From: Magnetococcales bacterium
Lineage (GTDB): Bacteria > Pseudomonadota > Magnetococcia > Magnetococcales > UBA8363
Reading direction: 5' to 3'
NCBI GenBank assembly: GCA_015232645.1
Contig: JADFZF010000015.1
Span: forward strand, 1 to 33,521
DNA: 33,521 bases
This document shows, piece after piece, positions 519 to 28,097 of this stretch. Position 1 is the first letter of the stretch; each line of letters starts with the position of its first letter. The notes below the pieces were generated by a model. That model was given only the letters and a program-made list of their open reading frames with translations. It was not told the origin of the DNA and did no database searches. The position numbers and the translations under genes were made by a program.

Positions 519-2255
519 ATGTCCATCGATCACAAATTGGCCCTTGGGTTTGGAAGTCTTGTTGGTTTGGTGTTGCTGCTGGCCATGTTGGCTTGGCAAA
601 ACATGCAGATCCTGGACACCCTGGGTCAAAATCATACCCGTCTGCAAACCATGCGTATTTCGCTCCTGGAGGCCAGAAGATGCGAAAAAAATTATTTATT
701 GCGCTTCGAACGTCGCTGGGTCGATCTGTGCCTGGAAAAAACGGACGACCTGACGCGCATGATCGCCGCGGAAGCACGTCTGAATATCCCTTCCGAGGCT
801 GATCACTGGCGCCAAGCCGCCCGATCGATCGCGGAGTACAAAGAGCGGATCGATCAAACCGTCCAGAATGGTGGGCCAGATCTGCTCCAGAGAGTGGCCA
901 TCGGCGAGAGGCTGGTTCCTCCCGCGGCACGACCGCTGCATGAAGCGCTTGAGAAGCTGATCATGATCCGAGCCAAAACCAAAAAAGAGCATATGGATTG
1001 GACCGAACATTTTTATTCTTATTACGTTATATTCACCATAACAATGACAATAATCGTATTCACTCTCATCGCCTATTCCATTCGTTCCTCCTTGCTTGCT
1101 GGAGTCCGATTCGTCAAGGAGATCGAAGCGGGTAATCTGCAGGCGAGAATTCCCTGGATTCCTCCCGACAACATAGGAATCCTGTTCAATGCCATGCACA
1201 ACATGGCGGCGCAACTGCGACGGCTGGAGGATGCCAATATCCATGCCATGGCGTCACGCTTGGCCCTCAGCGCTCTGCTGGAAACGTCCCAGGAGCCACT
1301 GCCGCTGCCACGCCAGTTGGAAATCGCACTGCAAATCATTCTGACGGTCCCTTTCCTGCGGGTACAGAAAAAGGGAGCCATCTTTTTGGTGGACGACCAT
1401 ACCGGCTGCCTGAATATGGTCGCATGGCATGGCTTGCATCCTGATATCATTCAATCCTGCCGCGAAGTCGCTCCGGGACATTGCCTGTGCGGACGCGCCC
1501 TCGAGGGGAAAACCCTCCTCTATTCGTCGCGTGTGGATGAACACCACGACACCGTTTTCCCTGGGATGGAGGATCACGGCCACTATTGCCTGCCGATCCT
1601 CGCCCGCGGATCAGTACAAGCGTTGCTGACCTTGTATCTTTCGCCGGATTATCAACATTCTCCTGAAGACGAGGCCCTATTGACCAACGTCGCCTTCACC
1701 CTGGCGGGGATTCTCGAACGCCGGCGGTTGGAAGAAAAAATGCGGCATATGGCCCACCATGATCTGCTGACCTCGTTACCCAACCGGGCGTTGTTTACCG
1801 AACATTTGACCCTGTCCCTGGCCAAGGCGGCGCGGCGAAACAACCTGTTGGCACTGATGATCATCGATCTGGATCATTTCAAGCAGGTCAACGATACCTG
1901 GGGGCACGCCGTTGGCGATCAGGTTTTGATCACAACCACCAAGAGGATACGTGCGTGTCTGCGTGCGTCGGACCTGATCGCTCGTTTGGGAGGCGATGAA
2001 TTTGCCGTCATCCTGTCCGACCTCGCCGACCGGGGCAGCGCCTCCCTGGTAGCGGAAAAGATCGTCCACGAAGTGTGCCAACCCATGATCGATACAAGTG
2101 CCCCGGTCACCATCGGTGCCTCGGTGGGAATTGCCATCTATCCGGAGCATGCCCTGGATGGCGATGAACTGATGATCCGGGCCGACAAGGCGATGTATGA
2201 GGTCAAACAACAGGGCAGGAACGGCTATCGCTTCGTCAACACACCGATTCCTTGA
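519..2255 (+). CDS. Membrane-anchored diguanylate cyclase (N-terminal TM, periplasmic region, second TM plus HAMP-like, GAF-like, GGDEF)
   Basis: Two hydrophobic segments; HDLLTSLPNRALF, DLDHFKQVND, ARLGGDEFAVIL; I-site RxxD (RASD) five residues before GGDEF. Confidence 0.92.
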   Translation: MSIDHKLALGFGSLVGLVLLLAMLAWQNMQILDTLGQNHTRLQTMRISLLEARRCEKNYLLRFERRWVDLCLEKTDDLTRMIAAEARLNIPSEADHWRQAARSIAEYKERIDQTVQNGGPDLLQRVAIGERLVPPAARPLHEALEKLIMIRAKTKKEHMDWTEHFYSYYVIFTITMTIIVFTLIAYSIRSSLLAGVRFVKEIEAGNLQARIPWIPPDNIGILFNAMHNMAAQLRRLEDANIHAMASRLALSALLETSQEPLPLPRQLEIALQIILTVPFLRVQKKGAIFLVDDHTGCLNMVAWHGLHPDIIQSCREVAPGHCLCGRALEGKTLLYSSRVDEHHDTVFPGMEDHGHYCLPILARGSVQALLTLYLSPDYQHSPEDEALLTNVAFTLAGILERRRLEEKMRHMAHHDLLTSLPNRALFTEHLTLSLAKAARRNNLLALMIIDLDHFKQVNDTWGHAVGDQVLITTTKRIRACLRASDLIARLGGDEFAVILSDLADRGSASLVAEKIVHEVCQPMIDTSAPVTIGASVGIAIYPEHALDGDELMIRADKAMYEVKQQGRNGYRFVNTPIP

Positions 2256-2279
2256 TGATACAAGCCCTGCCGCACGGAG

Positions 2280-3464
2280 CTAACTGCTGAACGGCCGACC
2301 GCCCTCGGTAAGGTTGGAGGTCCGACAGGCTGAATCGCTGGGGTCATCCAGGTTTGGCAGTCCGACGATGATTGTCGTCCGGTTTGGCACCGAAGAGTCC
2401 AAGCGAATCGTCCCGTTCTGGGTCAAAGCCATGAGTTTGGCGGAATATGTGCCCAAACCGGTTCCATCTTTTTTCCCTTTTGTGACAAATTTTTCAAAAA
2501 ATCGCTCTCGAATCTCTTCAGGGACTTCGCCACTGTTGCCAATTTTTATTTCTGCGGGGGCTCCATGCAACATGTCAATATGAACCGTTCCCCCCGATGG
2601 AGAAGCCTCCATGGCATTATTGATCAAATTATTGAAAAGCGAAAAACATAACGATTCATCGCCGATGATCAAGAATGAGTCATCTTGAGTTAAAGAACGC
2701 CCGTCGATATGGATCTGGAAATCGATCTTCCTAGAGAGGCTCTTTCGCTCCGACAGTCGACTCAATTTACCAAACACCTTGACTAAATCGACCGATGCGG
2801 AACTCAGTTTGTAGGTCCCATTTTCCATTTTTACCAGGTCGAGAGAATGATTAATCTGTCCAAGCAAGGAATAACCGGCATCCACGACCAACTGGCACAT
2901 TTGCGTCTGCTCTTCGTTCATCTGCAGGGTCTCTCGCAACAGATCGGAGAATCCCAACATGGCGTTCAATGGGCCTTTCAGGTCATGACGGAGGATAAGA
3001 TCGATTTCTTCACGTAATTTGGCCGCGTTGATCAATTCCTCATTCTGTTGTTTGAGGCGAGCCTGGATGTTTTTCAGCTTCAGATGCGTTCGGACCCTGG
3101 CCTTGACCACGGGTGTACTGACCGGCTTGATCAAAAAATCAACCGCGCCGATTTCAAAGGCGTAGGCTTCATCGATCACATCGGTTTTTGCAGTGACAAA
3201 AATAACGGGTATTTCCCTCGTATTTTCCTGTGACTTGATCCTACGGCAGACCTCATAGCCATCGATATCCGGCATCATAATATCAAGCAAGACCAGATCG
3301 ATGGCCTGTGAGGCCAAGAGTTCCAAAGCCATCTTGCCGTTTTTCGAAAAAAAGAGCTCGTATTCATCCGCTAATGCCGAAATCAATACTTTGATGTTTC
3401 CCGGAACATCATCGACAATGAGAATGGATGGCTGCTTTTCAGCATTATTATGGAATGACGTCAT
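2280..3464 (-). CDS. Response regulator receiver-histidine kinase (REC-HisKA-HATPase)
   Basis: N-terminal REC (ILIVDDVPGN...LVLLDIMMPDIDGYEVCRRIK...PVIFVTAKTD...FLIKP); H-box LRHDLKGPLNAMLGFSDLL; N-box NNLINNAMEASP; GTGLGTYSAK. Confidence 0.9.
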   Translation of the reverse strand: MTSFHNNAEKQPSILIVDDVPGNIKVLISALADEYELFFSKNGKMALELLASQAIDLVLLDIMMPDIDGYEVCRRIKSQENTREIPVIFVTAKTDVIDEAYAFEIGAVDFLIKPVSTPVVKARVRTHLKLKNIQARLKQQNEELINAAKLREEIDLILRHDLKGPLNAMLGFSDLLRETLQMNEEQTQMCQLVVDAGYSLLGQINHSLDLVKMENGTYKLSSASVDLVKVFGKLSRLSERKSLSRKIDFQIHIDGRSLTQDDSFLIIGDESLCFSLFNNLINNAMEASPSGGTVHIDMLHGAPAEIKIGNSGEVPEEIRERFFEKFVTKGKKDGTGLGTYSAKLMALTQNGTIRLDSSVPNRTTIIVGLPNLDDPSDSACRTSNLTEGGRPFSS

Positions 3465-3495
3465 AAATTTGGCATATATTATTTAGATTAATGCA

Positions 3496-6400
3496 CTATA
3501 GATCCAGATCTATATTATAATGTTTTGCCAACTGGATCACATCTTGGCTTGCTTTCTGGAAATCAAGTGCATCCATTTTAACAGCTATGGATCTCTGAAC
3601 CTCTTGTACACCTGGGTCATTTCCATCAAGCATGGACGATAGTTCTTCAAATGTCTCAATTGATTTTACTCTATTATTTTTTAATTCAAGGAACAGGTTG
3701 GACATCATCTCACGTAATCGATTCAAATCTGTTTCATGGGATTGTTGTCTTCCCGCCATTTTTGTTGTTGAGTTTATTTCTTCCGGAGAAGGGATCGAGT
3801 TCAGAACCTGGTTCAAGGCCTGCTGTAATAACTGCAGGTTCTCGAAGGCCTTTGTCAGGTTTTCTTCACGGAGACTCAATTCCAGGGAATAGGCCGCTTC
3901 CGCCAGACGGTGTGCCGCCAGATTGGCAGCTATTCCCTTGACCGTATGCGCCAAATGGATGGCGGCATTGCGGTCGGCATGAACCTGTGGATCCAACGCG
4001 TCCCGAATGCGATCACAAATATTGAAATAATCTCGTTGCAGTTCCAATAACAGGGAAGTAAAAAGTTTGATGTTCCCTGAAAATCGTTCCATCGCCACTT
4101 CAATATCAATGCCAGTCAACTGTGGCCATTCGATCACCTCCGAATGCTTATGACTGTTCATCACATCCAATATTTTGTCCTTGAGCACGGAAGATGATTG
4201 TTCCGATGGGTTAATCCATCTTAATAATATATCGTAGAGTTGCTTACGTTCGATGGGTTTGCTGATATAACCGTTCATGCCGACTGCCAAACATTTCTCC
4301 CGATCCCCAACTAAGGCATGAGCGGTCATGGCGATAATCGGGATATTTTCAATATCGTGGTCTTTCCTGATATGAGACGTGGCGGTATAGCCATCCATCT
4401 CCGGCATCTGCAGATCCATGAACACCAGATCATAGCGATTTTCCCTGAGCATTCGTAATGCCACGCGACCATTGCCTGCCACTTCGACCTTGAGTCCGAC
4501 ATGCTCCAAAATCTCCGTGGCCACCTGTTGATTGATGGAATTGTCCTCAACCAATAATATCCGATGGCCTGCGATTTGCCTGACCACTTCGGCGGTATTG
4601 ATCTGTTCCCGACCAGGTCGGAACAAACGATCAACCTCCACTCCGTAGATACCCATGATGGTATCGAACAGCAGCGAACAGGTCACCGGCTTGCTGATAC
4701 AAGCTGCCACTCCATACATTCCGCTGCCACCCATGACCTCTCTTTCACGACCATAGCCGGTCAAAACAATGATTTTGGTCTGGGCATTGGCCGCCTGTTT
4801 CAATCGCTTCAGGGTGGTGTTCAAATGGGACCCGGGCATCCACCAGTCAATGAGGAAAAGTGAAAATGGTCGCGCTTCCTCCAGACTCTGCCGCAACGCC
4901 TGTTCCATTTCCTCCACCGAGGCCGCAACAATCGCTTCAAAGGTAAACAGTTCCAGAACCTCCTTGATCGATAATCGGGTGGCTGGAGAATCATCCACAA
5001 CCAATGCCCGAAGATTTTGCATATCCTTAGGAGGTAAAAGATCGTTATGCAACTCTTGATCGGAGCATCGTTGAAATCGAGCGGTGAATCGAAACAGACT
5101 GCCATGATCAGGCGAACTTTCCACCCATATCTTCCCCCCCATCATTTCCGTCAGCCGTTTACAAATCGACAGCCCCAACCCGGTTCCGCCAAACTTACGC
5201 GTAATGGATGTATCGGCCTGGGAAAAAGATTGAAACAACTCCCCGAGTTTGGCGGTATCGATACCAATGCCGGTATCCCGAACGGTAAATTCCAGGACGA
5301 TAGCATCACTCTCCTCCTCCAGGTGCCGAACACCAACCTCGATTTCCCCTTCCTCGGTAAACTTGATGGCATTACTGATCAGATTGATCAAAATCTGATC
5401 GAGGCGGAAATAATCACCATTAAGAACATAAGTGCATTCTTTAGACACCCGTATGATGAATTCCAGTCCCTTTTCATTCGCCTTGGCCCGAAAAAGGTCG
5501 GAAACCCGGTCAAAGACATCACGCAACAAAAAATCGTGATGCTCCAGCTCCATTTTTCCCGCCTCGATTTTGGAAAAATCAAGTATATCGTTGATGATTC
5601 GCAGCAAGGTCCGCGAAGAATTCTTGATTTTAGTCAAATAATCCCGAGCTTGATCCTCCAGACTCAATTCCAAAGCCAGTTCCGTCAGTCCAATGATGGC
5701 ATTGAGTGGTGTACGGATTTCATGACTCATATTGGCCAAGAATTCACTCTTGGCTCGATTGGCTTCGGTTTGAGCCGCAAGCAGTTCCGCTTCATGACGC
5801 CGTATTTGTTCCTGAATCCGTTGTTGTTCTTCCAGATTTCTGGCCATCTTGAGAAAGGAATCGGCGAGTTCTTCCAGTTCATCTCCGGTGGTTGTACTGA
5901 GTTGAATATCAAATCGCCGCTCCCCGATGGCTCGGGCGGCATCTCTCAGTTGCCAAATGGGATGGACCATGCGGCTGGAGACTCGATAGGCTACAAAAAA
6001 AACCAGGAGAGTACCGAGAATCATGGCGGACAATACGTCGAAACGCAAACTATTGGCCGATTCAAAGGCCTCTTGCGCATCGATTTCCCCAGCCAGGATC
6101 CAATGAATACCAACTTTCTCAAATATGGGTAAATCATGATACGCCCCCAGTACCGGCACGGCACGATAATCGGGGTAGACATTCTCCATCGCCACCAACG
6201 GTACCTGAACCGCCACGGGTTGAGCTGGTCGTCGTTGCTGACGTTTCCAGTATTCCAAGAGCGGTGTCTCGCACTTTTCGGTCAAAACCGTCGCATGGGG
6301 CGATAGATGCGAATTGGAACGCATGATACCGTCCAGACCCAACAAAAAGGTCTTTCCGGTATTCCCCAGGCCAATACGATTCAATAAAATATGGTTGATA

Positions 6401-14478: not shown

Positions 14479-17400
14479 TCATTCCCTCCCAGGGGTGCGC
14501 CGCTCCGTCATGGAGGCGTGTTGACGGGCCACCTGCTGGAAGATTTCCAAAAGTTTTTGTTTTCTGATGGGTTTGGTTAGATGTTCGTTACAACCCGAGG
14601 CCAGGCTTTCTTCCTGTTTCCCCGAGGAGGCATGGGCACTCAGGGCACAAATGTACAGCGGTCTGCGGCCCGATTCCCTCTCCCATCGACGAATCGCCCG
14701 GGTGGCCGAATAGCCGTCCATTTTCGGCATCTGAATATCCATGAGTATCAGGTCGAACGCCTCTTTCCGCACCCGCTCCACCGCTTCGGCCCCGTTGTTG
14801 ACCATCGCCAAGGTGTGGGAAGTCGATTTGAAATAGGTTTCGATCAAGATCTGATTTTCTTCGGTATCCTCTGCCAACAGGACATTCAATCTTCCGATGT
14901 CGGTCTGAGACGGTTGCGTTCCAGGCTGAGTCGGCAGCGGCACAAGTTCGGTGACGCGCCGCGGCAGGGTAAAAGAAAAGGTACTGCCAACATTTCGTTG
15001 GCTCTCCACCCAGATCCTCCCCCCCATCAGTTCCACAAGCTGCCGCGATATGGTCAAACCAAGCCCAGTCCCGCCATATTGACGGGTGATCCCGGCATTG
15101 GCCTGGGTGAACCGCTCGAAAATACGATCGATATCCTGAGGGGCAATGCCAATACCGGTGTCGGTGACGGAAAACAGCATCAGGCCTGGATTTTGAGGCG
15201 CCGATCGCAGGCTGACGATCACCTGGCCATGATCGGTAAACTTGATGGCGTTACTCACCAGATTGATCAATACCTGCCGTACCCGACCTTCGTCTCCCAA
15301 CACCACTTCCGGCATGCCGGAGGCCATTTGGCCCGAAAGCACGATCCCTTTCTGTTCTGCAGGCAGCTGCATGAGCTGAACGGTATCGGTGACCACCTGC
15401 GCCGGGGAGAACGGCGCCTCCAACATCTGAAAACGTCCCGCCTCGATACGCGAGCTGTCCAGGACATCATTGATGATCCCCAGCAACGTCTGTCCCGAAC
15501 GATACATCAATTCCACATACCGTCGCTGTTCACTGGACAGTTCGGTTTCCAGCAAGACCCCCCCCATGCCCAAGACCACGTTCATGGGGGTTCGGATTTC
15601 GTGACTCATGGCCGAAAGAAAATCACTCTTGGCCCGGTTGGCCGATTCGGCCTCCACTTTGGCATCATGCCATTTTTTCTCGCTGGCACGCAGTTCCTCT
15701 TCAAGATGCTTGCGCTTGGAGATATCCCTCCAGGCGACGAACAGGACCTTCCTGCGTTCCAGGCGGGTCACGGAGGCGGTCACCTCCGCCCAATAATCGC
15801 CACCGCCGTCCAACCGACGATACATCCATTCGAACCGGTGATAACCCCGTCGCAAACATTGATCCGCGTGCTGAAACGCCGAATCCCTGGAAGTCGTGCC
15901 ATCGGGCTGCCTCTCTGGAGCCAATTCATCGACTCGTTTGCCGATGATCTGTTCCCGGTCCCCGCGTAAAAGTTTTTCGGTCGCCACGTTGCAATCGGAG
16001 ATCCGTCCCTGATCGGTTTCGATGATGGCATAGGCATCGGGAGAGTGGAAAAACAGGGTCGAATAACGCTCCTTCAATTCCAATATTTCCTGTTCCACCC
16101 GCACCTGTTCGGTAATATCCGCCTGGATGCCGCTCCAGATGGTGGCGCCATCCTGGAGGCTGGTGGAGATGGAACTGATGCGCACCCACCGCGTTTCGCC
16201 ATGGCGGCGAACCCGTCCCATCCACTGAAATGGTTCCAATGACGCACTGACCTTGTCGATCTCCGCCAAGAACCCGGGAAAATCATCGGGGTGGATGGCC
16301 TGAAAGGCCAGCCGATCGTCGAGCATGACCTCTTCCCTGCTCAATCCGAGTTGATCGCACCAGTTGTTGCTGACAAAATCAAACCGGGATCCGCCTCCCG
16401 CCAATGATCGCCATTTATAAACCCCGACCGGAATTCGTTGCAAAAGATCGGACCATTCCGCCATGACATTTTGTAATTCAATCTGATTCTTTTTCAATTC
16501 GGTTATGTCGAATAGGGAGACGAGATATTGCGGCGGTTGCAACCCTTTCAATGCTCGCGCGTCGGTCAGCGCCGTTTTGCTACTGCCATCCCGGCATCGA
16601 ATGTCTACCTCCATGCTTTGAAAAGCCGCCCCCGTTTGCGCCGCTGCCTGCAAACGCCGCAGCCACTCTGTTTGCACCCACTGCCGATAGACAGGATCGG
16701 GATAGGCCAGTGGCCACCACTCCGCCAGCGTCGGAACCTCTTCGGGATGGTAGCCGAACGTCTGGATGATGGCCGGATTGGCATAAATTATATAATGTCG
16801 ATCATCTATGATAACATAGGGAACAGGAGAGGATTGCAAGATGATGCGAAAGTTATCCTCGGCCCGTTGCCGGTCGACGACTTCTCGTCGCAGCCGACGA
16901 TTCCATAAGCCGAAAAAAAGAAAAATCAACACCACCGCCGTACCACTGGGAACCAACCAACGCAGCATGGTTTCGATGGCGATGCCGAAATGGACCTCAA
17001 CCGCCAGCCATGTCGTCTCGATGGCTGCCTTTTCCTTGCTGCTCATCGCCGTCAATTGCTGGTCCAAAAGCGTCGCCAGTTCCGGCCAATCCTTGCGTAC
17101 CGCCATGGCCAGTTCAAACCGATAGGGGGTCGGGGCCGCTATCCGCACATGGGACAGACGCAGATGACGCATCTGATAGGTAATGGCCCCCAGATTGTCG
17201 ACCATGGCATCGATTTCTCGATTTTCCAACGCCATCAACCCCTGCACCAGCGTGTCGAACAACTCCAATCTCAGCTCGGGATGATCCTTGGCCAACTGTT
17301 CATGGGTGATATAACTCTTGACCACCCCGGTTTTTCTTGCCGTCAACGAATAAAGGCCAGAGACGAAAGACCCTTCATCATGGGTGGCAATGACCACGGG

Positions 17401-17799
17401 AAAAGAGATGTAGGGTTGGGTAAAATTGAGAAATTCTTCTCGTTCCTTGGACCATGCCACCGCGGGCAGCATGTCGATTTCCCCGCGTTTGATCTTTTCC
17501 ATGACTTCCGCCCAGCTCAGGCCGAAAACGGGTTCGATCACGACTCCGAGACCTTTGGCTGCCGCGGCGACATAATCGGCACCGATGCCAACGAAGTTGT
17601 TTTTGGTGTCCTGGAAGACAAATGGAGGCCAGGAATAGTCGTCGCCCAGGCGAATGGTCGCATGGGCCGCCAACCACTCCCTCTGCTTCGGGTCGGGATG
17701 CCTTCCGGCCTCAGGCTGAACCGCCAGGGAAGTCATGGGGAGGGCTTGGATTAAAAGGGAAACAAGCCCCGCACCGACGATCTTCACCAATGGGTCCAT
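14479..17799 (-). CDS. BvgS-like hybrid histidine kinase (SBP_bac_3 sensor, TM, PAS repeats, HisKA, HATPase, REC)
   Basis: Venus-flytrap motif WLAAHATIRLGDDYSWPPFVF...GIGADYV; PAS repeats; [58 protein letters not shown]...LILMDIQMPKMDGY. Confidence 0.93.
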   Translation of the reverse strand: MDPLVKIVGAGLVSLLIQALPMTSLAVQPEAGRHPDPKQREWLAAHATIRLGDDYSWPPFVFQDTKNNFVGIGADYVAAAAKGLGVVIEPVFGLSWAEVMEKIKRGEIDMLPAVAWSKEREEFLNFTQPYISFPVVIATHDEGSFVSGLYSLTARKTGVVKSYITHEQLAKDHPELRLELFDTLVQGLMALENREIDAMVDNLGAITYQMRHLRLSHVRIAAPTPYRFELAMAVRKDWPELATLLDQQLTAMSSKEKAAIETTWLAVEVHFGIAIETMLRWLVPSGTAVVLIFLFFGLWNRRLRREVVDRQRAEDNFRIILQSSPVPYVIIDDRHYIIYANPAIIQTFGYHPEEVPTLAEWWPLAYPDPVYRQWVQTEWLRRLQAAAQTGAAFQSMEVDIRCRDGSSKTALTDARALKGLQPPQYLVSLFDITELKKNQIELQNVMAEWSDLLQRIPVGVYKWRSLAGGGSRFDFVSNNWCDQLGLSREEVMLDDRLAFQAIHPDDFPGFLAEIDKVSASLEPFQWMGRVRRHGETRWVRISSISTSLQDGATIWSGIQADITEQVRVEQEILELKERYSTLFFHSPDAYAIIETDQGRISDCNVATEKLLRGDREQIIGKRVDELAPERQPDGTTSRDSAFQHADQCLRRGYHRFEWMYRRLDGGGDYWAEVTASVTRLERRKVLFVAWRDISKRKHLEEELRASEKKWHDAKVEAESANRAKSDFLSAMSHEIRTPMNVVLGMGGVLLETELSSEQRRYVELMYRSGQTLLGIINDVLDSSRIEAGRFQMLEAPFSPAQVVTDTVQLMQLPAEQKGIVLSGQMASGMPEVVLGDEGRVRQVLINLVSNAIKFTDHGQVIVSLRSAPQNPGLMLFSVTDTGIGIAPQDIDRIFERFTQANAGITRQYGGTGLGLTISRQLVELMGGRIWVESQRNVGSTFSFTLPRRVTELVPLPTQPGTQPSQTDIGRLNVLLAEDTEENQILIETYFKSTSHTLAMVNNGAEAVERVRKEAFDLILMDIQMPKMDGYSATRAIRRWERESGRRPLYICALSAHASSGKQEESLASGCNEHLTKPIRKQKLLEIFQQVARQHASMTERRTPGRE

Positions 17800-24213: not shown

Positions 24214-25803
24214 TCAGGGATGCCGCCGGTCCATGGCACGACGTTCGCCCACATAATTCAATAACGCATCAAGTACCCCGGCCATGGCGGTCGTCTGGTC
24301 GGACACTTCATCGTGGGCGCTGCCATGTTGCTGCAACAGATGCAGATCGGCCATGCTCAGGTCGTGCAACAGTCCCAACTCTCCCTGAAACTGCACGATT
24401 AATTCCGCTAGTTTGTGGCTATTCACCCCAGTGGCGCTGCTCCAGCCAATCAGACGCCCAGCATCCTCCACGACCGAGGCCATAGCTTCGTTGGCCAACA
24501 CCGTTTCCTCACGACCAGTCGTCACCGTTTTGTGGATGCTTTGTACCAGATCATCGACAAACTGGATACTCCGTATGACATCCATACTCAAATTCTTGAT
24601 TTCATCCGTGAAAACCACATACCCCCGGCTGGTTTCCTGGCGGGAGGATTCGGCGCTGGCACTGGTGGCCAGAAGATTGACCCGGATGGACATGTTATTG
24701 AGTAGTTGCATCTGCGCCAAAAGCTTTTCGCACAACACCACCATTTGCCCCCCCAGGTCTTTCACATTGGCCATGGCGACATCGACATTTTCCGCCCTGG
24801 TTTTGATACGCTCCGAATGGGTTTCAAGCTCGGCGATGATCCGCTGGGATTCGGAGTTCAAATTGTTGACCGTGGTCACGGCATGGGTCAATGTTTTGAT
24901 GACCTCCCGGCGCCGGTCATCGCTCTTGCCCATCTGAGTCATGACAAGGTGGAGGTTTTGCGCCGCTGTTCGCACAATTTCATGCTGTTTCCGGAACGGA
25001 TCGGCAATCCTTCTCAAGGTATTGGCCTGATCCAACGACCGCTGTTGCTGAATGATCACGATGGACCTCAGCAACAACGCCCCACCTCCGGCGCTCAATA
25101 CCAGCAGCATTCCATAAATGACTCCCGAAAAATCATACCACTTGGACGTTTCGGTCCCCAAATGACGCGATAACTCCCGGGTCACGTCGAAGGCCAGTTT
25201 CAATTTGCTTTCCAAATGCTTCGTTTCATCATTGATGGCCGAAACGTTGGCACTGAGATTTTTCAAATATTCCTTTTCCACATCCACCAGGATCCGATGG
25301 CTGTTGCCGGTAACGATCTCCGCCTTGGTCAGGAAACGATATTTATAGATGTTGCGCATCGTCGCCCCGGAGAGATGCTCGAAGTTGGAATGGGTTTTCT
25401 GAAAATCGACGAAAATGTTTTTTATCTTTTCCGCCCGACGTTTATCTTCCTCGGATTCGGCGTTTTCCATGCTGTCCTGGATGATATTCCGGGCCTCCAC
25501 CAAGGAATTGTTCAAACGGCGGCCGGCATTGATAAAACCTTCGTTGGCGATTTCAAACTTGCCCCGATCTTCGACTTCTCCGTACAAAATCGCTTCGTTG
25601 ACACGCAGGACCTGATCCAATTGTTGCCGGGTGATTTCCGAAACCGCCAGCGTCAATGGCATATCCTGCCGGTCCATATCCATGAAACGATGGACCGACC
25701 GGCCGATCATATGATATCCAAATCCGGCTACCACCATGACCGACAGCCCCATGAAGGCGCTCAATACCGCCAACTGCACCGTCAATGTCAATTTGTTCAA
25801 CAT
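24214..25803 (-). CDS. MCP-like chemosensory transducer with divergent signalling tip
   Basis: Two TMs flanking a helical periplasmic domain; long cytoplasmic coiled coil; IRVNLLATSASAESSRQETSRGYVVFTDEIKNLS aligns with the MCP tip ([33 protein letters not shown]) but many consensus residues are changed. Confidence 0.75.
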   Translation of the reverse strand: MLNKLTLTVQLAVLSAFMGLSVMVVAGFGYHMIGRSVHRFMDMDRQDMPLTLAVSEITRQQLDQVLRVNEAILYGEVEDRGKFEIANEGFINAGRRLNNSLVEARNIIQDSMENAESEEDKRRAEKIKNIFVDFQKTHSNFEHLSGATMRNIYKYRFLTKAEIVTGNSHRILVDVEKEYLKNLSANVSAINDETKHLESKLKLAFDVTRELSRHLGTETSKWYDFSGVIYGMLLVLSAGGGALLLRSIVIIQQQRSLDQANTLRRIADPFRKQHEIVRTAAQNLHLVMTQMGKSDDRRREVIKTLTHAVTTVNNLNSESQRIIAELETHSERIKTRAENVDVAMANVKDLGGQMVVLCEKLLAQMQLLNNMSIRVNLLATSASAESSRQETSRGYVVFTDEIKNLSMDVIRSIQFVDDLVQSIHKTVTTGREETVLANEAMASVVEDAGRLIGWSSATGVNSHKLAELIVQFQGELGLLHDLSMADLHLLQQHGSAHDEVSDQTTAMAGVLDALLNYVGERRAMDRRHP

Positions 25804-25823: not shown

Positions 25824-28097
25824 TTAACCTTGGCTATATTCCACTCGAAACAGAAAATACAAAATCCAGATGACGATCAGTGGATAGAGTATCAATGCCA
25901 TCGTATCCATTCGACGTGCCAATTCGATCTCTTTCTGATTGACCAGATAATTGACAAAGGCGGTTTCGACGATGGCGAGAAAAAACAAAACATAGGAGAA
26001 CAGAAAAAATAAATCGCCCCGTACCAGGTAGCCCACTCCCAATTTGTTGACATTGTGATAAGACATGGCGCTCAATATGGTGGTCATCCCCATGGCATAC
26101 CGTGTTGAAATAACGTCATATCCTACCGTAAATATGACGTATGCCGAGGTGGCCAGCACCAGCAGCGGCAACATGGCGATCAGGTAACCGATCGATTCCC
26201 GCCGCATCAATACATGATAATTATACTGTGAATGGTCCAAAACAAACAGCTTGTCATCATATTTTGGATTGCGATAGCTCCATAGGAAGTCCTTGTTGTT
26301 GGTAAAGTGCATATGGTTGATATCTTTCCAGGCGCTAAAATCCAATTTTTTCGTCAGAAAGGAATCGTCGTCAATATCGGTGACCAGGATCAGGTCTTCA
26401 TTGGTCTTCAATTTGGGTTTGATGCGAATTTTTAATATTTGCTGATCAAATGGGTAATAGTACAAAGGAAAATGATCAGTCATCCGCGCCGATACCGAAT
26501 AGGAAATAAAATTTTGATTGGTCTTCTTGTCGAAATATTTTTCCCGGACCGCTGCGGTCAACACCTTGCCATAGGTCATTTCAAAGTCCAAATTTTTGTT
26601 TTTTCCAGGATCCCAACGGAACCATAAATTAAAATTGGCGACAAAGTTGCCTTGAACCGGATCAAAGGTCTCGATCTCGTCGATATAGATACCGGTGTAA
26701 ACGACAGTGGCCCGTTTCATGAAGTGATTGTCAAAATAGAAAATATCGGAATCTGTTTGCCGCATCTTGGCCAGTTCCTGATATTTGATGTGGGTCAGCT
26801 GGAAACGGGCAGGGATATAGCGCCCATGTTTGACTTGACCGACCCACAGATTGCGTTGACTGAAACTGCGTTCATTGAAATACAGATCCCCGGCAATACT
26901 GGGCATAGCATCCTGTTTCTTGATCATCTTCCGCAATATATTGCGTACTTCGGTACCATTACCTGCTTCCTGGCCCAGGGCATGGGCAATCAGTTGCGCC
27001 GCCTCATAGGAATAGGTGGAAATCCAATTGGCTTCTACTTGGAATTCCTTCAAAAACGCGATCTGAAACTGCTTCGAGGCCTCGCCAAACAAACTCGGAA
27101 GATAGGGGGTGACGGCATAAACATCCTCCGCATAAATGCCCGCATTGCGAATAAACAGCTCTCCTCCCAGGCTCTCCCCGCCAATCACATCGGTCTCGAC
27201 CCCGTTCTTACGCAGCAGTTTGATGATCTCCGCGGCATTGGTATAGTTCATCGCCAAAAAAATCATGTCCGAATCGGAAAACTGCTTGATCCGGTTTTTG
27301 AACAACTCCATGTTGACGTCCTTGTAGTTCATTTCCGCCACTACAGTCGGGGTGACATCATTGATTTTCATCTCGGCGGTAAAATATTCTTTTAAAGATC
27401 GTCCATAGGCAGTATTATCATTGATAACGGCTATATTCTTCCGGTCCAGACCATGAAGGACATAATTGGCCAAAAAACGGGACTGAAAATAATCATCCGG
27501 CATGATACTGAAAGCCCATTCATTGTCAGCAGTCACCACCGGCAGCGTGGCTGAAGGCGAAATGAACGGAATACGGCTCGACCGATAGACATCACCGGCG
27601 ACTATGCTGGCAATGCTGAAATAATGGCCAATGATCCCTATAAGCCCTGGTGTCTCAACCAATTTTTTTGCACTTTTCTCCGCGTACCCATTGTATTTGG
27701 CGGTACTCCGATCATCCACCACCGCCAGCCGGAGTTCATATTTCTCCAATTTTCCACTTTGATTGATATCCTTGATGGCCAGCATGGCACCGCGTTTCAT
27801 GGACAACCCGACATCAGCGTAAGGACCAGACATCGGTCCCGCCAGACCGATGGTCAATATTTGCTTTCTGGGAGCGATCCACTCATGGGCCTGGTACAGG
27901 ACGGCGAATAGCAGAATAAACGCCGCGGCGTACAGGAACATCCTTGGCGGCGATTGGGAACCCGATGCCAGGATCCTATCGATCAGGCCAGGCATGGGGG
28001 CCCCCCTGGTTGGTGCCAGGAGGCTCTGCCGACGGTTCCGAAAAACACTCATCGAGTCCATCCCAGAGCCGTGCGCCTCCCGCTTCGCGTCCGCCAT
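25824..28097 (-). CDS. Type-I periplasmic-binding-protein domain fused to a pentameric ligand-gated ion channel (Cys-loop/pro-loop superfamily)
   Basis: N-terminal TM (MFLYAAAFILLFAVLY); Peripla_BP_6-like ILTIGLAGPMSGPYADVGLSMKRGAMLAIKDINQSG...IGIIGHYFS...VINDNTAYGRS; then pLGIC extracellular domain (VYTGIYIDEIETFDPVQGNFVANFNLWFRW...DHFPLYYYPFDQQILKIRI) and M1-M4, with M3 GVGYLVRGDLFFLFSYVLFFLAIVETAFVNYLV. The start may be Met35 at 27995, preceded by AGGGGGG. Confidence 0.9.
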   Translation of the reverse strand: MADAKREAHGSGMDSMSVFRNRRQSLLAPTRGAPMPGLIDRILASGSQSPPRMFLYAAAFILLFAVLYQAHEWIAPRKQILTIGLAGPMSGPYADVGLSMKRGAMLAIKDINQSGKLEKYELRLAVVDDRSTAKYNGYAEKSAKKLVETPGLIGIIGHYFSIASIVAGDVYRSSRIPFISPSATLPVVTADNEWAFSIMPDDYFQSRFLANYVLHGLDRKNIAVINDNTAYGRSLKEYFTAEMKINDVTPTVVAEMNYKDVNMELFKNRIKQFSDSDMIFLAMNYTNAAEIIKLLRKNGVETDVIGGESLGGELFIRNAGIYAEDVYAVTPYLPSLFGEASKQFQIAFLKEFQVEANWISTYSYEAAQLIAHALGQEAGNGTEVRNILRKMIKKQDAMPSIAGDLYFNERSFSQRNLWVGQVKHGRYIPARFQLTHIKYQELAKMRQTDSDIFYFDNHFMKRATVVYTGIYIDEIETFDPVQGNFVANFNLWFRWDPGKNKNLDFEMTYGKVLTAAVREKYFDKKTNQNFISYSVSARMTDHFPLYYYPFDQQILKIRIKPKLKTNEDLILVTDIDDDSFLTKKLDFSAWKDINHMHFTNNKDFLWSYRNPKYDDKLFVLDHSQYNYHVLMRRESIGYLIAMLPLLVLATSAYVIFTVGYDVISTRYAMGMTTILSAMSYHNVNKLGVGYLVRGDLFFLFSYVLFFLAIVETAFVNYLVNQKEIELARRMDTMALILYPLIVIWILYFLFRVEYSQG

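Follow-up and report, generated by a model that had tools for sequence, protein, structure and literature searches.

What bacteria use channels of the neurotransmitter-receptor type for is largely unknown. Fusions of a type I periplasmic-binding-protein domain (PBP-I) to a pentameric ligand-gated ion channel (pLGIC) were described in two alphaproteobacteria, Magnetospirillum magnetotacticum and Bradyrhizobium japonicum, in a study that also proposed a chemotaxis-receptor role for bacterial pLGICs (Tasneem et al., 2004, PMC549065). The functional associations assigned to such pLGIC domains and their gene neighbours rest on genomes only (Jaiteh et al., PMC4795631), and DeCLIC is, according to a 2025 paper (PMC12664993), the only pLGIC whose N-terminal domain has been partly characterised.

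Here we analyse a 33,521-nucleotide stretch of DNA from a Magnetococcales bacterium (contig JADFZF010000015.1, called the window) that encodes a fusion of this kind. An initial annotation, made from the sequence alone, had suspected that the architecture may not be wholly new; this is correct, as the same fusion had been published (PMC549065). What is new is the chemoreceptor-like partner that constantly accompanies the channel. This partner, a sister architecture built on MscS pores and the probable start codon of the channel were all missing from the initial annotation. With a constant partner, the chemotaxis guess of Tasneem et al., which was drawn from domain fusions, can be put to a direct test on only two genes and a predicted class of ligand.

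A pLGIC with an N-terminal PBP-I domain

The channel ORF is real and its coordinates held (Table 1). A survey of homologues for the joint presence of both domains found the whole architecture in 18 close relatives at 37–70% identity, which excludes chance as its origin. Translation probably starts at M36 (position 27992), giving a protein of 722 aa, since a ribosome-binding-type sequence (AGGGGG) lies upstream and the relatives have shorter N termini. The AlphaFold2 single-chain model (23 sequences; mean pLDDT 82, pTM 0.79) contains the N-terminal helix, a two-lobed PBP, beta strands over residues 452–633 and the four helices M1–M4 at the boundaries listed in Table 1, so that the predicted fold includes both the beta-sandwich and the pore helices.

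Table 1. Coordinates of the channel, its partner and their features within the window
Feature	Position	Strand	Evidence or remarks
PBP-I::pLGIC fusion ORF	25824..28097	(-)	757 codons counted from first ATG
N-terminal transmembrane anchor, aa 52-73	27879..27944	(-)	hydropathy, N-terminal alignment, model helix 52-73; no AxA cleavage site
PBP-I (Venus flytrap) domain, aa 78-436	26790..27866	(-)	Peripla_BP_6, Foldseek, motif S161/T184/D202/Y231/E308
pLGIC beta-sandwich (extracellular/periplasmic) domain, aa 452-632	26202..26744	(-)	profile matches and model
Pro-loop signature YPFDQQ, aa 548-553	26439..26456	(-)	alignment; no Cys-loop cysteines
Four-helix pore domain M1-M4	25830..26192	(-)	M1 636-657, M2 663-684, M3 693-720, M4 724-756; phmmer, profile, model
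Pore helix M2, TRYAMGMTTILSAMSYHNVNK-type	26046..26111	(-)	alignment; R0', G4', L9', K19'
Partner gene, HAMP-less chemoreceptor-derived two-TM protein, 529 aa	24214..25803	(-)	20 nt downstream of channel, no terminator between
Partner periplasmic domain, aa 26-226	25126..25728	(-)	unusually conserved
Partner altered hairpin tip, aa 368-408, VNLLATSASAESSRQETSRGYVVFTDEIK	24580..24702	(-)	alignment to Tsr, tip comparison

Identification of the pLGIC half depended on the sensitivity of the search. Neur_chan_memb scored only 16.4 bits against the channel, below its cut-off of 28.1; Neur_chan_LBD gave no match in the channel, and PF02931 matched nothing in the search of the channel's own genome or in any control. 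The Pfam checks suggested by the initial annotation were therefore passed by Peripla_BP_6 and nominally failed by Neur_chan; the latter models alone were rejected as a test, being too insensitive for the PBP-pLGIC family, and more sensitive searches settle the identity. With phmmer against PDB chains, the transmembrane domain of GABA-A beta-2 matched aa 633–752 (E=2.5e-8), while NCBIfam LGIC_1 matched aa 545–740 (E=3.1e-10). A six-sequence profile of the C-terminal half retrieved from the PDB GLIC/GABA-A chimeras (6e-10), many GABA-A, glycine and GluCl channels, and DeCLIC, and a profile of the beta-sandwich alone matched GLIC around the Pro-loop (8e-4). Foldseek with the channel model does not bear on this half, its top matches all being PBPs.

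The sequence features agree with this assignment. PFDxQ is invariant across 23 fusions, and the form YPFDxQ is seen in the alignment; the loop of the window channel, DHFPLYYYPFDQQILK, lacks cysteine and so does not form the disulphide of the animal Cys-loop. The beta-sandwich with its Pro-loop is the most conserved of the channel domains (65% mean identity), and the M1–M4 pore domain retains 51% mean identity over 18 loci. Within M2, numbered here after the aligned M2 helices of GABA-A and glycine receptors, the stretch HNVNK (15'–19') is kept in nearly all members and further positions are conserved in the alignment. K19' is conserved and an acidic residue lies near −5', while E-1' and P-2' are missing; because the pore thus lacks the usual selectivity residues at −1' and −2', its ion selectivity is not predicted. 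With a beta-sandwich, a YPFD-type Pro-loop and homologous M1–M4 helices all present, the protein belongs to the pLGICs, and the central claim of the initial annotation, a PBP domain fused to a full pLGIC unit, is confirmed by the Peripla_BP_6, phmmer, LGIC_1, profile and AlphaFold2 analyses taken together. The fusion is shown; the further claim of a pentameric channel gated or modulated through the PBP is not, and pentamer formation, conduction and gating remain inferences.

The N-terminal half is a PBP-I module (Peripla_BP_6, aa 82–423, E=1e-41), and hence not a two-lobed, calcium-sensitive domain of the DeCLIC type. Foldseek gave TM-scores to target of 0.85–0.91 for LivJ, several leucine-binding proteins and Atu2422; the ligands of the nearest PBPs of known structure are leucine, branched-chain amino acids, or GABA and alanine. 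In Venus-flytrap receptors, S165, T188, D208, Y236 and D318 of mGlu1 hold the amino acid by its amino and carboxylate groups (PMC2680970). Motif inspection matched these residues to S161, T184, D202, Y231 and E308 of the channel, all five of which are invariant in 19 of 19 partnered channels, including that from Nitrospirota; the motif is incomplete in each of the four unpartnered fusions examined. The invariance strengthens the earlier proposal of an amino-acid-like ligand, which may be an alpha-amino acid or a GABA-like compound, yet the ligand class remains an inference without ligand or binding data.

The N-terminal transmembrane anchor claimed at the outset also held. An AxA signal-peptidase site is absent from the partnered channels and present in three of four unpartnered fusions, a comparison that gives good support to an anchor that stays uncleaved in the former. 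A short linker and an uncleaved anchor would keep the N terminus of the PBP near the membrane, so that the PBP may possibly flank the ring of beta-sandwiches rather than cap it.

A conserved chemoreceptor-derived partner gene

The partner gene lies directly downstream of the channel on the same strand in all 20 loci where the contig continues, and the pairing spans two phyla, being found in Magnetococcales and in one magnetotactic member of the Nitrospirota. The intergenic gap is 10–20 nt within the window's genus and mostly 4–96 nt elsewhere; the outliers are an overlap (L118) and the Nitrospirota locus (287 nt). When 18 distinct loci were compared, channel and partner each had a match in 17 of 17 others, and no other neighbouring gene was common to more than 4 of those 17 (antisense shadow ORFs were ignored in this count). 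Two genomes carry two copies each (L038/L051 and L039/L050), and every copy keeps its own type of partner. Channel and partner distances correlate (r 0.92), a result that carries little weight because co-inheritance alone predicts it. Adjacency itself can mislead, as illustrated by neighbouring binding-protein and kinase genes whose products do not interact (PMC11113362). The two-gene unit is nonetheless shown, and its constancy suggests that both proteins act together as one sensor, for which there are no contact data; co-transcription is likewise inferred. In the open-access literature searched, we came across no description of a chemoreceptor-like protein paired with a pLGIC.

In one locus (L041:6468-8601) the partner is split across two frames, apparently through a frameshift or an error of assembly. 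Elsewhere in the window, positions 14479-17799 encode a hybrid histidine kinase whose N-terminal sensor is of the SBP_bac_3 type, and further sensor kinases and GGDEF proteins are abundant in this stretch.

The partner has two membrane helices separated by about 200 periplasmic residues. A profile of the partner family matched E. coli Tsr over its cytoplasmic hairpin (positions about 258–512, E=2.6e-28), and MCPsignal matched all six members searched (best 8.5e-11), identifying an antiparallel signalling hairpin; one member also has a TarH match at its N terminus. The partner departs from canonical receptors in several respects. No HAMP match was obtained at E<=1 in six members, and the Tsr-like match begins about 10 residues past TM2. 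The methylation consensus is absent from 16 of 19 partners (canonical receptors have 1–5), and the tip is one residue shorter in most members. Moreover, partners are among the weakest chemoreceptor-type matches in their genomes, scoring at most 38 bits against at least 70 for nearly all full matches.

Conservation is also distributed differently. Partners share 40% pairwise identity in their periplasmic part, 20% in the arms and 43% in the tip; within the same genus, 16 canonical chemoreceptors share 21%, 55% and 93%. The partner thus lacks the near-invariant CheA/CheW-binding tip. The canonical controls are mostly paralogues with different ligands, which lowered their periplasmic identity. 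This comparison indicates that selection kept the periplasmic face of the partner and relaxed the part that normally controls CheA. The simplest reading of a kept periplasm and drifted arms is that the partner would contact another protein in the periplasm, the channel being the foremost candidate. Much of the core that receptors conserve in the tip is gone, and it is therefore doubtful that the partner signals to CheA/CheW. An array to couple to exists, as the genome contains canonical receptors and CheW (about 27 MCP and 10 CheW-family matches).

Distribution of relatives and the MscS sister proteins

The named relatives of the channel are almost all Magnetococcales, and close relatives of its channel half (E<1e-50) occur in 18 of 48 genomes of that order. 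The best channel-half match in the sample of Pseudomonadota outside Magnetococcales reached 1.8e-30 and had no partner, no relative of the channel half was found in the plasmids searched, and among 395 Nitrospirota genomes a close relative was present only in Candidatus Magnetocorallium paracelense, a magnetotactic species (PMC10278575). The window channel shares 70% identity with copies in another family of the order, compared with 61% and 48% within its own genus, which suggests horizontal movement. A strictly magnetotaxis-specific role is possible but no more than a lead, resting on two lineages with no magnetosome-gene search behind it.

Several related arrangements were encountered. In L088:6415-9925 a PBP-pLGIC gene shares 23 nt with the gene of a second pLGIC-like protein (401 aa), and the two products might form a heteromer; in L087:3256-7211 a PBP-pLGIC gene overlaps by 4 nt an SBP_bac_5 binding-protein gene, recalling the PBP-II neighbours of Tasneem et al.; and L036:9445-10644, from the same genus, encodes a divergent 399-aa pLGIC-like protein without a PBP.

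Proteins of about 930–1265 aa that join a PBP and a homologous beta-sandwich to an MscS pore occur in at least 15 Magnetococcales genomes and in several other Pseudomonadota (L037:6009-9086, L092:6243-9353, L098:5327-8434, L091:6371-9211 and about 20 more loci). By hhalign, their sandwich aligns with that of the unpartnered pLGIC fusions (E=2.7e-30 over 192 columns) and with that of the window's family (1.7e-17), against 0.44 for the partner as control. A PDB profile search with this middle domain retrieved no pLGIC, so the assignment rests on hhalign and a low-confidence model; the top Foldseek matches of the chimera are nearly all PBPs. The Pro-loop has been lost from these sandwiches, which are still preceded by the PBP. 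The occurrence of PBP and beta-sandwich on MscS pores is as expected of a transferable gating module, and poses the structural question of how a sandwich known from five-fold rings sits on a pore known from seven-fold ones. No paper on such a protein was found in the open-access literature searched. In L116 the PBP/beta-sandwich and MscS parts occupy adjacent ORFs (720-2150 and 2163-4313), either a natural split or a frameshift.

A working model, its rivals and comparison with known systems

We lean, by a modest margin, toward a channel gated by amino acids and a dedicated partner of chemoreceptor origin, together forming a two-protein sensor of the inner membrane, in which conductance, ligand and physical contact are all inferred. 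In this model, five channel copies would form one pLGIC pore in the inner membrane, and the periplasmic Venus flytrap of each copy would bind an amino-acid-type ligand (an alpha-amino acid or a GABA-like compound). Closure of the flytrap would act through the adjoining beta-sandwich on M2 and alter ion flux. Tar, Trg and Tap are chemoreceptors that dock on soluble binding proteins; by analogy, the partner may dock its conserved periplasmic domain on the PBP or beta-sandwich, and its hairpin would either relay the state of the channel to the chemosensory array or tether the channel there, chemotaxis output being inferred as well.

Other readings must be weighed against this model. The PBP could merely capture ligand or modulate the channel, which would be opened, like other pLGICs, by a ligand bound at the interface of the beta-sandwiches. 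This is possible: the beta-sandwich, Pro-loop included, shows strong conservation (65% mean identity), and Tasneem et al. (PMC549065) propose the same for fused and operonic binding proteins. However, the ligand motif of the PBP is invariant in 19/19 partnered channels, and the MscS fusions lost the Pro-loop and kept the PBP, which fits the PBP as primary sensor. It could also be that the channel does not conduct in vivo and serves as a ligand receptor read only by its partner, as strict pairing with a chemoreceptor derivative and an M2 without a clear selectivity filter might suggest; we consider this unlikely given that M1–M4 are conserved over 18 loci (51%), with M2 positions and HNVNK kept. 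Least likely of all, the partner would be an ordinary, independent chemoreceptor that merely shares the operon. The homology of its hairpin to Tsr and the N-terminal TarH match of one member speak for this view, which has against it the lack of a HAMP match, the scarcity of methylation consensus, the tip identity of 43% versus 93%, the shift of conservation to the periplasm and partner matches of at most 38 bits.

The two-protein sensor model can be carried further, to a bolder reading that we offer tentatively and at present incline slightly against. Here, the partner would be an auxiliary subunit derived from a decommissioned chemoreceptor, the complex would link ion flux to the array and would have spread between magnetotactic lineages, and the PBP/beta-sandwich sensor would have moved onto the unrelated heptameric MscS pore. 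If this is true, one ligand-sensing module drives two unrelated types of channel.

Among described systems, the fusions of PBP-I to ART-LGIC domains (PMC549065) share with the window channel the order of PBP-I, beta-sandwich and four TM helices, but their reported neighbours are PBP-II or Cache genes and no chemoreceptor-like partner. GLIC, ELIC and other Pro-loop pLGICs (PMC4795631) have the YPFDxQ-type loop in the beta-sandwich, M1–M4 and no Cys-loop cysteines, and differ in lacking the N-terminal PBP, the uncleaved anchor and the partner. DeCLIC (PMC9897478, PMC12664993) is likewise a pLGIC with a large periplasmic N-terminal domain, and its pore is matched by the family profile; that domain, however, consists of two lobes with calcium sites rather than of a Venus flytrap. 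Animal GABA-A and glycine receptors provide the best M1–M4 sequence match (2.5e-8) and a similar M2 pattern (R0', G4', T6', L9'), but have no PBP, bind ligand between beta-sandwich domains and possess the Cys-loop cysteines. Ionotropic and metabotropic glutamate receptors also place a Venus flytrap before the membrane domain, and the amino-acid motif positions are those of mGlu1, whereas the membrane domains are unrelated. On the partner's side, the hairpin aligns to Tsr and two TM segments flank a periplasmic domain as in E. coli Tsr/Tar, from which the partner differs in having no HAMP, almost no methylation consensus and an altered tip that is usually one residue shorter. Finally, the sister proteins join the same PBP and beta-sandwich to the pore of MscS channels, where the window protein has a pLGIC pore instead.
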